From Acidobacteriota bacterium (GTDB lineage: Bacteria > Acidobacteriota > JAAYUB01): a stretch of 64,000 bases of DNA. Below are positions 30,991 through 36,027 of the stretch, one piece after another. The DNA is taken from positions 1 through 64,000 of the forward strand of contig JAAYUB010000104.1 in assembly GCA_012517875.1 (NCBI GenBank), in the 5' to 3' direction. Made by a program: the position numbers and the translations under genes. Positions within the stretch are counted from its first letter, which is position 1, and every line of letters begins with the position of its first letter. The notes beneath the pieces were generated by a model. The model did no database searches, was not told the origin of the DNA, and saw nothing but the letters and a program-made list of their open reading frames with translations.

Positions 30991-31018
30991 GGTAATCCCA
31001 CCGGGAGAAGGGTTGTTG

Positions 31019-31399
31019 TTAGCAGTTGACGTTGGCCTGGGATGCGTTCTTGTCGGTGATGCTGGAGTTGGCGCCGGAATCGAAATTGCGGAAATACCCC
31101 CTTTCCGGATCCTGCTGCGAGTCATGGTACACCGACAGGGCATCGCGGACGCCCCGCTCGCCGCTCAGAACGAATGAGTCGTCGGGCCGCCGGGTGATGG
31201 TGGCGATACCCGCATACTCGCCCGCGCCCTTGCCGGAGAGCACCCAGTAGATGAACGCCCCGGTGGTCGTGTTGCGGCAGAGTTTCGCCAGGCCGGCGTC
31301 GCCGACATACACGGCGTCAAACATCTCCGGCACATCGAGCACCGCGGTGATCCGGTCGGTCCGGAGCTCTACGTGGTTCGGGATGCCGTCGGTGTCGAC
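31019..31399 (-). pseudogene. 3' remnant of a gene carrying the shared C-terminal module
   Basis: In the frame read on the minus strand this piece encodes DTDGIPNHVELRTDRITAV, FDAVYVGDAGLAKLC, then WVLSGKGAGEYAGIATI, ending in ANVNC. It matches the C-terminal end of the two genes at 32865 and 34814 (FDLIFVDDYGRSKLC, HVLTGTGAGEY, ending NPDSCD), including the position of both cysteines. It also matches the Asp-rich stretch before the module in the 34814 gene (DQDGDFMLDGVEL). There is no start codon or signal peptide. Its upstream end runs out of frame into the 3' end of the glycosyltransferase gene, so it appears to be what is left of a third family member after a deletion. Confidence 0.6.
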
Positions 31400-32682
31400 G
31401 GCGCGGCGCCGAACACGGCGTCCTCGATGAGGTACGTGCCCATCCACGGCGCGTTCTTGAAGCCGTCCCAGGCGGCCTCGGCGAATTTGCCCGACTCCAG
31501 CACGTAGAACAGCCAGTCGTCCAGGTACTCCAGCCCCTCCTGCGGGAAGCCGGAACCGATGTTCTGGAGCCAGCGCTGGTTCTCCACCTCGTGGGCGCCC
31601 ACCGGCGGGCTGGTGATCACCGGCAGGCCCAGCGCGGTGTAGAAGGTGAGTTCCGACGGCTTGGTCCAGATGATGTCGGTGTCGTGGAGGGCGGCGTCCA
31701 TCTTCTCGAAATAGCCGAACTTGTCGGGCGCGAACACGACGTCGACGCCGTTGGCGATCCCCAGCCGCTCCAACTCCTGCATGAAGAAGGTGTACACCTC
31801 CATCCGGATCCCCGCCACGAGGAACACCCGCACTTCGCCTCGTTCGATCCGCCCGCGCAGCGCCTCCACGAGCTGGATGCCGATCTCCCGCTGGGCGCCG
31901 GCGCCGCCCACGAGGTACATGAGGGTGAGGGGCCGGCCCGACTCCTCCGTGATGTTGTCGATCCCGAGGTCTGCAGCCATCAGCGGCAGGTACTTTTGCC
32001 TGAATTTCAGCTTCGGGTCCAGGTTGGGGATGCGCCGGGCCAGGTCGCGCTTCAGTACGGGGCCCTCCTTGCCGCCCACCAGCGAGTCGGGGAGGGGGAA
32101 GCCCGTCTGGATGATGCGCTCGGGCGGCACGCCGTACTGGATGAGGCGGGTCCGGGCGTGGCGCGACGGGGCCAGGTAGGTGATCCGCGACTCCCTGGGC
32201 TTGGGGGGAACCCAGACCCGGTTGATGTCGGTGTCGGTGACCACGCAGAACACCCGCTCCAGACCGTGGTGGTCGGCGGCCAGCGCGGGGATGAAGTGGG
32301 TGGTCAGGATGGGCAGGTCCTTGAGGCGGATGTAGTCGACGAGGCTCTTGCACAGGCCGCCCCGGATCTTGCGGTGGAGGAACAGCGCCGTGGTGGTGGG
32401 CTTGGACAGGTCGCGGAACGGGAAGAACGGTGAGATCCGCTGGAAGCGGTCGTAGGCGTCGAAGAGCAGGTGCAGGGGGAAGGGGGCGTTGCGCAGTCGC
32501 GAGACGAACTCGTAGCCGCTGCGGGCGCGCTCCCAGTAGCGGTGCTCGTTGGGCGCGATGATCTGGTCGTTGTTGGCGGTCAGGATCCGCTCCTCGGCGA
32601 TGGGCTGGAACGGGAAGGCGGCCCGCTGGTGCCCGTAGCCCATGTCCACCGAGATGACCCACGCCTTGCGCTCTTCGGTCAT
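31369..32682 (-). CDS. GT28/MGDG-synthase-like glycosyltransferase
   Basis: The 437-residue cytoplasmic protein has a GT-B layout. An N-terminal domain opens with VISVDMGYGHQRAA, the acceptor-site loop of monogalactosyldiacylglycerol synthase-like enzymes. The C-terminal donor domain has LTLMYLVGGAGAQREIG near 270 and the sugar-nucleotide motif TKPSELTFYTALGLPVITSPPVGAHEVEN near 360-390. It probably transfers a sugar to a lipid or other hydrophobic acceptor. ATG at 32682 with GGAGG six bases upstream was preferred over an extended frame. The last residues (FGAAPSTPTASRTT) read as filler across the junction with the module remnant, so the native C-terminus may have been altered by that event. 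Confidence 0.8.
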   Translation of the reverse strand: MTEERKAWVISVDMGYGHQRAAFPFQPIAEERILTANNDQIIAPNEHRYWERARSGYEFVSRLRNAPFPLHLLFDAYDRFQRISPFFPFRDLSKPTTTALFLHRKIRGGLCKSLVDYIRLKDLPILTTHFIPALAADHHGLERVFCVVTDTDINRVWVPPKPRESRITYLAPSRHARTRLIQYGVPPERIIQTGFPLPDSLVGGKEGPVLKRDLARRIPNLDPKLKFRQKYLPLMAADLGIDNITEESGRPLTLMYLVGGAGAQREIGIQLVEALRGRIERGEVRVFLVAGIRMEVYTFFMQELERLGIANGVDVVFAPDKFGYFEKMDAALHDTDIIWTKPSELTFYTALGLPVITSPPVGAHEVENQRWLQNIGSGFPQEGLEYLDDWLFYVLESGKFAEAAWDGFKNAPWMGTYLIEDAVFGAAPSTPTASRTT

Positions 32683-32808
32683 GTGCGGCCTCCGCGAGAA
32701 GGTGCATGCTGCGACAGGGGATTGTCCGCTCACAGGTTAAGCCATCCGGCGGGGTGATGCAACCGGAAATCGGTGGGACTGGCCGGAACACGCCCGCGCC
32801 CGTTGGAT

Positions 32809-32835
32809 AAAAAAGGCCCGCGCGCGGCGCGGGCC
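32809..32835 (-). terminator. Intrinsic terminator of the kelch-protein gene
   Basis: Stem 32815-32823 with 32827-32835 (9 bp, all G/C, loop of 3) is followed on the minus strand by TTTTTT. It lies 30 bases after the stop and is part of the duplicated segment. Confidence 0.9.
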
Positions 32836-33165
32836 CTGGGGGTCGAACTGGATGCGGCGGTCGATCAGTCGCAGGAATCCGGATTGTCCGTGGTGATTCG
32901 GTCGTAGAGCACGGAGTTGATCCGCTTGGCGCCCCACTTGAGATAGCCGGTGGCCCGGTTGATGTTGGTGGCGTGGTTGACATAGACGAGCCACGGGTTG
33001 CCGTCCTGGTTGTAGAAGTAGTAGCCGTAGTTGTAGGCCTTAAAGACGCCCGTGCCGCTGTACTCGCCGGCGCCGGTGCCGGTGAGGACGTGGTAGACGT
33101 AGTCGCCGGTGTCGCTGTTGATGCACAGCTTGGAGCGGCCGTAGTCGTCCACAAAGATCAGGTCG
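32815..33165. repeat. Direct repeat copy 1 (module and terminator)
   Basis: This 351-base segment matches 34764-35114 without gaps; I count nine mismatches (about 97% identity). It covers the terminator stem, the 3' untranslated bases and the last 100 or so codons of the kelch-protein gene. Identity stops abruptly at the border with the unrelated upstream domain. Confidence 0.9.
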
Positions 33166-34625
33166 AACACGTCGCACACTTCGATCCGGCTGGCGGTGCC
33201 GGTGGGGCTGAAGCCTCCGGTCGAACCGCCCAGCTTGTAAATGGTGCCATCCAGCGCCACGGCACTGGTGCGGTAAACGGCCGGTGACGGGAACACCCCG
33301 CCGCTCGTCCAGGAAGCGGCGCCGGGTTGCCAGTAATAGGACTGATTGAGAACAGTCGCAAGATAATTGGTGACACCACCGGCCATCCACAACTGGGACT
33401 TGCCGCAGTTGACTTGGCAATAACCCATGCCCCACAGAGTGATGGGAATAGCCGGGACATCCGCGTTTTCAGCATTCCAGGAACCGGTGTTGAAATCGTA
33501 ACACTGCGTGCTGGTCAGTTCGACACTGGTGGATGTGATGCCCCCGGCCACGCAGAGCAGTTTGCGGTTGTCGCCGGGGCGCCGGAAGATGAAGGCGCTG
33601 TGAAAATCCCGGGCCGTGGTGAAGTTGGGCAGCGAGGCCAACCAGGCGTTCGTGGCGGGATTGTACACGTACACCGTGCTCAGGTTACCTCCGCCCGGGT
33701 TGGTGGCACCGCCGGTCATGTAGAGGATGCCGGTCTCCGGATCGGCCACCCAGGCCGGGGCCCAGATGCCGGCGGGCGGCGCCGGGGTCCCCGTGGGTGT
33801 CTCATGGGTCCAGACGTTGGTGGCCATGTTGTACGACCACAGGCCGGTGAATCCGACGGTGGTGGAGTCACCGTACATGTACACCTTGGAACCGTAGACC
33901 GCCCCGGATCGCGCGTAGTTGACGCCGAACGGCGGCGCGGAGCCGGCGACCGTGGACCAGGCGTCGGTGGCCGGATTGTAGACGCGCACGTTGGCGTTGC
34001 CGCCGTATCCGGTGATGGACCAGGCCAGACCGTTGTAGGCGGCCACCACGTTGTCCATGCGGCCGCTGTCGGGCTCGGTGGCGATCAGCTCCCACGCCGC
34101 CAGGGCCATCAGGCTCTGGATGTCGGTGGCCGCGGAGATTCCCAGCCCAAGGGCGAGGACCGAGGTGGAGATCGTCTGACCCGGCGGCAGCGCCGGATCA
34201 GCCACCACCGTCACATCGATGGCGGCCTCGTCCCAGGCGCCCAGGTAGACGGATTCGGGACCGGAAATGAAGCCCTGGGCGTCGTCGATGACGTACTCCA
34301 GCCGGACCAGGCCGGGGGCGCCCGTCCGGTTGGCCAGCTTCAGGGTCACGGTCTGGGGCAGGCCGGGGGTGCAGGCGGTGGACACCAGGGGCTGGTCGAA
34401 ACTGAGGCCGGTGGCCCGATCCGGCGCGGCCGTCTGGAGCGTCCGGGCTGTGGCCGGGGCCATCCGGAAGGGCTGGTCGGCGGTGCCGGTGGACACCCGC
34501 GGCTGGACGGATCGCAGATCGAGACCGCGGCGGCTGGCGTCCGCTCCCAGCGCGACACAGGTGGTCGCACCGATCAGGATCAGAGCCAAAAGCACGACAA
34601 ACGGCCTGATGTGTGAGTTAAACAT
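32865..34625 (-). CDS. Exported kelch-type propeller protein with shared C-terminal module
   Basis: The 586-residue precursor has a signal peptide (FVVLLALILIGATTCVALG). Next is an Ig-like or adhesion-type region (about 75-165; LVSTACTPGLPQTVTLKLANRTG). A kelch beta-propeller follows (about 175-480), with repeating units such as VRVYNPATDAWSTVAG, LWSYNMATNVWTHE, VYVYNPATNAWLASL and TIYKLGGSTGG. The last 95 or so residues (FDLIFVDDYGRSKLC to the end NPDSCD) form the module shared with the 34814 gene and the 31019 remnant; it is Tyr/Asn-rich with one Cys near its start and one at its end. Start ATG has AAGGAG six bases upstream. Probably extracellular or cell-surface; partner unknown. Confidence 0.82.
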   Translation of the reverse strand: MFNSHIRPFVVLLALILIGATTCVALGADASRRGLDLRSVQPRVSTGTADQPFRMAPATARTLQTAAPDRATGLSFDQPLVSTACTPGLPQTVTLKLANRTGAPGLVRLEYVIDDAQGFISGPESVYLGAWDEAAIDVTVVADPALPPGQTISTSVLALGLGISAATDIQSLMALAAWELIATEPDSGRMDNVVAAYNGLAWSITGYGGNANVRVYNPATDAWSTVAGSAPPFGVNYARSGAVYGSKVYMYGDSTTVGFTGLWSYNMATNVWTHETPTGTPAPPAGIWAPAWVADPETGILYMTGGATNPGGGNLSTVYVYNPATNAWLASLPNFTTARDFHSAFIFRRPGDNRKLLCVAGGITSTSVELTSTQCYDFNTGSWNAENADVPAIPITLWGMGYCQVNCGKSQLWMAGGVTNYLATVLNQSYYWQPGAASWTSGGVFPSPAVYRTSAVALDGTIYKLGGSTGGFSPTGTASRIEVCDVFDLIFVDDYGRSKLCINSDTGDYVYHVLTGTGAGEYSGTGVFKAYNYGYYFYNQDGNPWLVYVNHATNINRATGYLKWGAKRINSVLYDRITTDNPDSCD

Positions 34626-34762
34626 AGAGACTCCTTCTGCTAAAGATATATGAAGTCAAAGCTATGCTGATCTTGCCTCACACAGACGGGAATTGCAAGC
34701 GATTCCATGCCGTTACGGAGAGATTTCGGCAGGACGACCGGTGGTGCGGGAGCGAAAGAACA

Positions 34763-34785
34763 GGGCCCGCGCGCGGCGCGGGCCC
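34763..34785 (-). terminator. Terminator of the GATase-like/module gene
   Basis: Stem 34763-34772 with 34776-34785 (10 bp, loop of 3) is followed on the minus strand by TGTTCTTTCG. It is the second copy of the hairpin at 32815, with a less perfect T-tract. Confidence 0.75.
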
Positions 34786-35114
34786 TGGGGGTCGAACTGA
34801 ATGCGGCAGTCGATCAGTCGCAGGAATCCGGATTGTCCGTGGTGATTCGGTCGTAGAGCACGGAGTTGATCCGCTTGGCGCCCCACTTGAGATAGCCGGT
34901 GGCCCGGTTGATGTTGGTGGCGTGGTTGACGTAGACGAGCCACGGGTTGCCGTCCTGGTTGTAGAAGTAGTAGCCGTAGTTGTAGGCCTTGAAGACGCCG
35001 GTGCCGGCGTACTCGCCGGCGCCGGTGCCGGTGAGGACGTGGTAGACGTAGTCGCCGGTGTCGCTGTTGATGCACAGCTTGGAGCGGCCATAGTCGTCCA
35101 CGAAGATCAGGTCG
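34764..35114. repeat. Direct repeat copy 2 (module and terminator)
   Basis: This is the partner of 32815-33165, offset by exactly 1949 bases with no gaps. It covers the terminator and the module-coding 3' end of the gene at 34814. Confidence 0.9.
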
Positions 35115-35992
35115 TAACCGCCGCCCGTCAGGTAGGCGAGGGTGTTGATCCACAACTCCACACCGTCGAGCATGAAGTCACCGTCCTGATCGATGGCCAA
35201 AGGGGCGTCCATGAAGCCCCGCAAGATCGACCGGCCGTCATTGCCCAGGATCAGGGCGGCTGAGTATGAATCCGGGCTGGGCGTGTATCCGGCGAGAGCA
35301 TCAAAACCCGGCTGACACATCAGCATTTGGCCATAGATACCATAATAGACAGTAGCGAACGTGAGGAAGTCCGGCACGGATTTGGGATCGGTGAAGATCG
35401 GATGACTCGGATCCCACTGGTAGATTGGCATGGGTGAACCAAGGTTGGACCAAATATTAGCACCCATGTTGGTGATAAGTGAGGGAGCATTCCCCGCGCG
35501 CCAAGTGTGCACATACAGGATTCCGCCGCTGAGCAGGTAATTTTCAAGGGCGGTGAACGTGGATGGGGGCGGTCCGTTGTTGTCGTTGGCGAAGATGACG
35601 ATGTCCCACGCCTGGCTGGCGAGGGTTGTCTCGAACGCGGCGAAAGCCCCGTTGTAGATCGCCGTATAGGGCAGACCCCACCACTGCAGGGCCTGGTCCA
35701 GCAGGGTGTTCGGCGCCGGATTATACGGGTCGTCGGTGTAGACCAGGATGGACGGGGCGCCGGCCTTCAGAGTCGCAGGCCGCCACCGGTACCCGGCTTG
35801 AGGCGCCGTGGATTTTTCCACCGCGTTCTGCAGCCCCGCCGCCGGAGCACCCTTGAACAACCAGATCCCGGTTCCCCGGGTGAGGGCGGGCTTCAGTTCC
35901 AGCGGGCGATGCATGAAGTCCGCCGCCATCGCCGGGATGGCGAGGGCAAGGATGGCCACCCATGTGATCATCATGACTCGTACTTTTGACAT
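34814..35992 (-). CDS. Exported GATase1/DUF4350-like protein with shared C-terminal module
   Basis: The 392-residue precursor has a signal peptide (VMMITWVAILALAIPAMA). A domain of about 200 residues follows, with a Rossmann-like class I glutamine-amidotransferase fold flavour. ILVYTDDPYNPAPNTLLDQA is followed by WDIVIFANDNNGPP and LENYLLSGGILYVHTW. The usual catalytic Cys of amidotransferases is not evident, so it is more likely a binding domain. An Asp-rich DQDGDFMLDGVEL stretch leads into the C-terminal module (FDLIFVDDYGRSKLC-like to NPDSCD), nearly identical to that of the kelch protein. ATG has GGAG eight bases upstream. The propeller and this domain are unrelated, so only the tail was copied. 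Confidence 0.75.
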   Translation of the reverse strand: MSKVRVMMITWVAILALAIPAMAADFMHRPLELKPALTRGTGIWLFKGAPAAGLQNAVEKSTAPQAGYRWRPATLKAGAPSILVYTDDPYNPAPNTLLDQALQWWGLPYTAIYNGAFAAFETTLASQAWDIVIFANDNNGPPPSTFTALENYLLSGGILYVHTWRAGNAPSLITNMGANIWSNLGSPMPIYQWDPSHPIFTDPKSVPDFLTFATVYYGIYGQMLMCQPGFDALAGYTPSPDSYSAALILGNDGRSILRGFMDAPLAIDQDGDFMLDGVELWINTLAYLTGGGYDLIFVDDYGRSKLCINSDTGDYVYHVLTGTGAGEYAGTGVFKAYNYGYYFYNQDGNPWLVYVNHATNINRATGYLKWGAKRINSVLYDRITTDNPDSCD

Positions 35993-36027
35993 ATGATCAA
36001 CTCCAAATAGGATTTCAAGATGATTGT

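Follow-up and report, generated by a model that had tools for sequence, protein, structure and literature searches.

In Acidobacteriota, exported proteins with unrelated N-terminal parts share a C-terminal tail that is portable at the DNA level. Judged by sequence comparison, this tail is an unnamed domain of about 100 residues without a Pfam, NCBIfam or PDB sequence match. Tentatively, and with slightly less than an even chance of being right, it would act after Sec export as an autonomous C-terminal domain for sorting or anchoring in this phylum, and would have spread as a 3′ cassette. The surface placement of proteins is poorly known in Acidobacteriota, abundant soil bacteria that are difficult to cultivate. 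In at least 19 genera, a profile of the domain marks proteins that are candidates for a surface or extracellular location, and it gives a tag with which the machinery could be traced. The cassette is a clear case of a 3′ domain and stop codon spliced onto unrelated exported genes, with boundaries that are legible in the DNA, and in one genus it includes a terminator hairpin. The window (the whole stretch of DNA that was analysed, 64,000 nucleotides of one contig) contains two complete tail genes, with the following features:

34814-35992, minus strand: exported alpha/beta (GATase-like) protein of 392 aa, with signal peptide, alpha/beta domain, Asp-rich linker and tail (open reading frame, predicted strand-helix pattern)
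34817-35119, minus strand: C-terminal module, copy 1, with Cys16 and Cys100 (alignment, structure prediction)
34764-35114, minus strand: 3′ cassette, copy 1, consisting of tail, stop codon and 3′ sequence (matched to 32815-33165)
34761-34787, minus strand: GC-rich terminator-like hairpin at the end of cassette 1 (hairpin scan)
32865-34625, minus strand: exported kelch-propeller protein of 586 aa, with signal peptide, kelch repeats and tail (open reading frame, Pfam)
32868-33170, minus strand: C-terminal module, copy 2 (near-identical to copy 1)
32815-33165, minus strand: 3′ cassette, copy 2, consisting of tail, stop codon and 3′ sequence (DNA alignment to cassette copy 1)
32813-32837, minus strand: GC-rich terminator-like hairpin, followed by a T run, at the end of cassette 2 (hairpin scan)

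The two genes are neighbours, each encodes a clear signal peptide, and at the ends of their reading frames (34814-35992 and 32865-34625, both on the minus strand) the tails read ...DLIFVDDYGRSKLC...PDSCD. The initial annotation of this DNA had claimed nearly the same tail for a kelch and a GATase-like protein that each carry a signal peptide, and this is borne out by 99% identity across 99 residues, with 2 differences in the 100-residue tails. The same annotation had put a Cys at the very C-terminus, which is correct for a third copy described below, where the Cys is final, and incorrect for the two full copies, where it is penultimate (SCD). Similarly, the richness in Tyr and Asn that it described is a property of the subfamily found in the window and not of the family consensus in an alignment of 40 tails. 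Pfam confirms the kelch repeats of the 586-aa protein. For the 392-aa protein it gives DUF4159 alone, at a sub-threshold E of 0.17; an alternating strand-helix pattern and a 'GGxL' stretch would fit the label 'GATase-like', and a full-length model of this protein (pLDDT 44) was too poor for use.

The two cassettes are 97% identical in DNA (342 of 351 nt) from within the first tail codons, where the shared sequence opens at window positions 33165 and 35114, through the stop codon to about 50 nt beyond it, with the hairpin last. On the minus strand of the 4.0-Mb genome this hairpin has only two occurrences, namely those of the window cassettes. Between the two tails there are 8 differences in 303 sites, compared with 17–27 for any pair formed with a sister genome, which makes the copying recent. 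The idea that the tails of a genome are being homogenised all the time was weighed and rejected, since the three tails of the congeneric genome G001 differ among themselves at 19–28 sites. These site counts support one recent copying event and do not support continuous conversion.

Next to these two genes, the window contains the third copy of the tail and a further gene, as follows:

31019-31324, minus strand: C-terminal module, copy 3, a divergent remnant that lacks both a signal peptide and an N-terminal domain (profile match, congener alignment)
31386-31422, minus strand: junction of a deletion of about 959 bp, with the DUF6938 gene joined out of frame to copy 3 (the two G002 alignment blocks overlap here)
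31369-32733, minus strand: DUF6938-type protein of 454 aa, its C-terminus changed by the deletion, a neighbour outside the module (Pfam, neighbourhood, congener alignment)

The third copy ('FDAVYVGDAGLAKLC...ANVNC') is a member of the family (E 2.8e-9, 33% identity), and its description as a gene remnant next door in the initial annotation agrees with what is found in congeners. In the congeneric genome G002 the gene order is a GATase-tail gene, the DUF6938 gene and a second GATase-tail gene whose signal peptide is intact. The window aligns to G002 in two blocks (95% and 83%) that are offset by 959 bp and overlap at the junction, which shows copy 3 to be the remnant of a deletion. The deletion took the end of the DUF6938 gene together with most of the second tail gene, leaving the tail out of frame. 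An intact counterpart of the gene is kept in both congeners, G001 and G002.

The locus also varies in other respects. The DUF6938-type gene, which has weak matches to UDP-GlcNAc 2-epimerase and MGDG-synthase-like proteins, is flanked by tail genes in each of the three congeneric genomes, and its 3′ end is altered only in the window genome. The number of kelch-tail genes in the locus also differs: G002 has none between the GATase-tail and DUF6938 genes, the window genome has one and G001 has two. Within the kelch-tail genes, the repeats at about codons 350–450 form a hypervariable stretch between orthologs (L099 and L162 compared with window positions 31000-36000).

Cassettes of this type are not limited to the window. 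In G001, G005 and G020, gene pairs with different N-terminal parts have tail DNA that is 85–98% identical, where the identity sets in within 0–6 nt of the beginning of the tail and in many cases extends 46–60 nt past the stop codon, and the boundary recurs in three genera in all (the window genus, which includes G001, and the genera of G005 and G020). As an example, two neighbouring genes of G005 (L073, 2534-3520 and 4138-5307, reverse strand) show a core-swap arrangement; they are 80% identical in the upstream and signal-peptide region and 97% identical in the tail cassette, and their middle domains are wholly different. One could imagine that the tail is a lineage-specific feature of paralogs, such as an integral last blade or an extension of duplicated genes, with no portability, and in the window genus most tail copies (6 in the window genome, 9 in G001 and 7 in G002, some of the congener copies being partial at contig ends) do belong to paralogs of one GATase-like architecture. 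This explanation has next to no probability, being contradicted by the unrelated partners in 19 genera and by gene pairs whose N-terminal parts are unrelated and whose DNA identity is restricted to the tail cassette.

The named relatives of the tail are Acidobacteriota MAGs. A profile built from the tails of the genus had matches in at least 16 of 396 sampled Acidobacteriota genomes, and its iteration with 40 diverse tails (profile A4) had matches in at least 25 of the 396 genomes and at least 19 of 210 genera, all of these being lower bounds since 12 candidates per genome were scored. In the A4 search of these genomes, copies per tail genome often numbered at least 5–12. The distribution is patchy across the 396 genomes, with the tail in multiple copies in some and absent from their relatives; many copies in tail genomes and none in relatives is the pattern of a tag with its cargo. 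Relatives of the window tail were not found in viral contigs, a scan for which the wide alignment was too divergent, and plasmids searched with two different tails gave zero matches. The initial annotation had not recognised the tail as a named domain, and indeed there is no model for it in Pfam (40 tails, E≤1) or in NCBIfam. A PDB sequence search with the tail returned nothing credible, and a search of the literature for an Acidobacteriota C-terminal sorting domain found nothing relevant.

The position of the tail is nearly invariant. Among strong tails with a closed 3′ end (E≤1e-6, n=105), 103 lie at most 13 residues from the protein end and 81 at most 3, and the tail is present as a single copy in 106 of 107 proteins, with one protein having more than one match. 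The partners are of at least 10 unrelated types. In 32 representative tail proteins, the Pfam domains, which never overlap the tail, include propellers and BNR repeats (kelch, RCC1, DUF5122, Vps10/BNR), enzymes and a lectin (subtilase, C10 peptidase, L-type lectin), FG-GAP and HYR repeats, PKD arrays, ice-binding domains and CBM96. Many unrelated N-terminal domains carrying the tail, all with signal peptides, are what the initial annotation had named as support from a profile search, and the search does find many such domains, with the tail nearly always at the extreme C-terminus and on signal-peptide proteins. It had also allowed for an integral last blade confined to kelch-type proteins, an idea that does not survive the presence of the tail on RCC1, subtilase, C10 peptidase and other proteins; identity as a kelch propeller blade was rejected on the many non-kelch partners and on the tail's own predicted eight-strand fold. 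With a simple scorer, a signal peptide was called in 84 of 95 tail ORFs with a closed 5′ end compared with 32 of 121 background ORFs, a loose background with permissive start choice. On inspection, 2 of the 11 misses clearly do have a signal peptide; other misses are frameshifted or truncated ORFs, or ORFs whose start is unclear. Several tail proteins contain a lipobox and are putative lipoproteins.

A tail that is single, always last, carried by unrelated exported proteins and multi-copy in a patchy set of genomes has the signature expected of a sorting or anchoring domain. The partners themselves are typically extracellular and often polymer-active or adhesive (lectin, CBM96, subtilase, C10 peptidase, PKD arrays), which would also suit an accessory domain that binds glycan, peptide or a surface polymer and so adheres or concentrates extracellular enzymes and propellers in the manner of a CBM. 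Such modules are commonly N-terminal, internal or in tandem, whereas the tail is nearly always single and terminal, and overall a binding role of this kind is unlikely. The predicted fold bears on the same question. Structure prediction, which had been proposed as a check, gave a confident eight-strand meander (AF2 with 11 sequences; pLDDT 89.4, pTM 0.79), a quality reached by 2 of 5 models with the other 3 near pLDDT 71. Using this model, Foldseek returned zero matches at E≤0.001. The best partial matches, obtained with a model from 11 sequences, are lipocalin-like barrels (TM 0.49–0.61, E 0.1–0.6), including phenolic acid decarboxylase (TM 0.49–0.55) and a MoaF-like viral protein (TM 0.53), and the assignment of the fold is tentative. 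This weak resemblance would be compatible with binding, yet the conserved residues of the tail, which are mainly at strand, turn, Asp and Cys positions (D8, D9, G22, G39, D90, C100), show no evident binding-site signature.

Cys16 is present in 57 of 105 aligned tails and is accompanied by Cys100 in all 57; the two co-occur as a disulfide pair would, and they are probably bonded. A divergent subfamily has Cys at positions 5, 29, 98 and 100, often with 27 and 86 added (27/86) and sometimes with 48 together with 65 or 69. In the predicted meander, positions 5 and 16 and the C-terminus would lie at the same end, so that the geometry would be retained if the partner Cys moved from strand 2 to strand 1. 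It is conceivable that the tail is simply a disulfide-closed C-terminal cap against unfolding and carboxy-terminal proteolysis that works without a recognition partner, as Cys16 always comes with the terminal Cys, further Cys sets co-occur in the divergent subfamily, and the domain is always last, on lipoproteins too. However, seven of the 105 aligned tails have zero Cys at the profile positions, and a generic stabiliser would be less likely to show many copies in some genomes versus none in their relatives, which makes a pure cap quite improbable.

If the tail is a sorting or anchoring domain, the protein would first be exported by Sec, and once in the periplasm the tail would fold up as a small beta meander or barrel of eight strands, closed in most members probably by a disulfide from Cys16 in strand 2 to the Cys that follows strand 8. 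A partner would recognise the tail in this folded form, and this recognition would place or hold the unrelated cargo at the cell surface or outside the cell. New cargo would be recruited when the 3′ cassette, with its tail, stop codon and 3′ hairpin, is copied onto other exported genes. In the gene neighbourhoods of 13 loci, a candidate partner gene common to the loci was not found, and the only common elements were response regulators and the synteny of one genus. Other observations also count against sorting or anchoring: the searches for known machinery given below (no Por_Secre_tail in the tail genomes, no SprA match in a run without a positive-control match, exosortase in only 7 of 25 tail genomes), tails borne by lipoproteins, which need no further anchor, and a few members without both Cys. 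In a more specific form, Acidobacteriota would have a hitherto undescribed outer-membrane system for secretion or anchoring, with a machine of its own that recognises the tail as the tag of its cargo, and the tail would spread between genes by a 3′ cassette with its own terminator; this version is rather doubtful.

Several known systems invite comparison. With lipocalin and calycin-like barrels (phenolic acid decarboxylase, MoaF-like) the predicted fold of the tail would share an eight-strand antiparallel meander at TM 0.49–0.61, but there is no sequence similarity and those barrels are not obligate C-terminal add-ons. With the PEP-CTERM/exosortase, GlyGly-CTERM/rhombosortase and MYXO-CTERM/myxosortase systems (PMC1569441, PMC3237569, PMC11980579) it shares a C-terminal homology region across unrelated exported proteins of one genome. 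Those tags consist of a short motif plus a transmembrane segment and are cut by an intramembrane protease. In contrast, the tail is predicted to be a soluble all-beta domain of about 100 residues without a hydrophobic helix, and identity as a PEP-CTERM-type tag was rejected, because neither the alignments nor the all-beta prediction show a short motif, transmembrane helix and basic tail. An exosortase is present in 7 of 25 tail genomes, whereas PEP-CTERM-type tags would call for a cognate exosortase in each. In G000, a single exosortase (EpsH family) gene (G000:C119:25433-26170), kept in both congeners, may serve a separate PEP-CTERM-type system.

Identity with the type IX tail of Bacteroidota (Por_Secre_tail, PF18962) was ruled out by sequence. 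PF18962 had zero matches to 40 tails at E≤1, the NCBIfam search gave no type IX CTD (PF18962/TIGR04183), and Por_Secre_tail was found in 0 of 25 tail genomes with a control that matched in Bacteroides ihuae. A search for the type IX translocon (SprA/Sov) matched 0 of 396 genomes, in a run without any positive-control match. The tail differs from the type IX CTD in its predicted eight-strand meander, its Cys pair and its phylum. What the two have in common is a folded beta domain, of about 75–100 residues in type IX, that occurs in many copies per genome and stands last on proteins that have a signal peptide and whose N-terminal domains are unrelated. By analogy, the tail may be functionally like the type IX CTDs while not being homologous to them.
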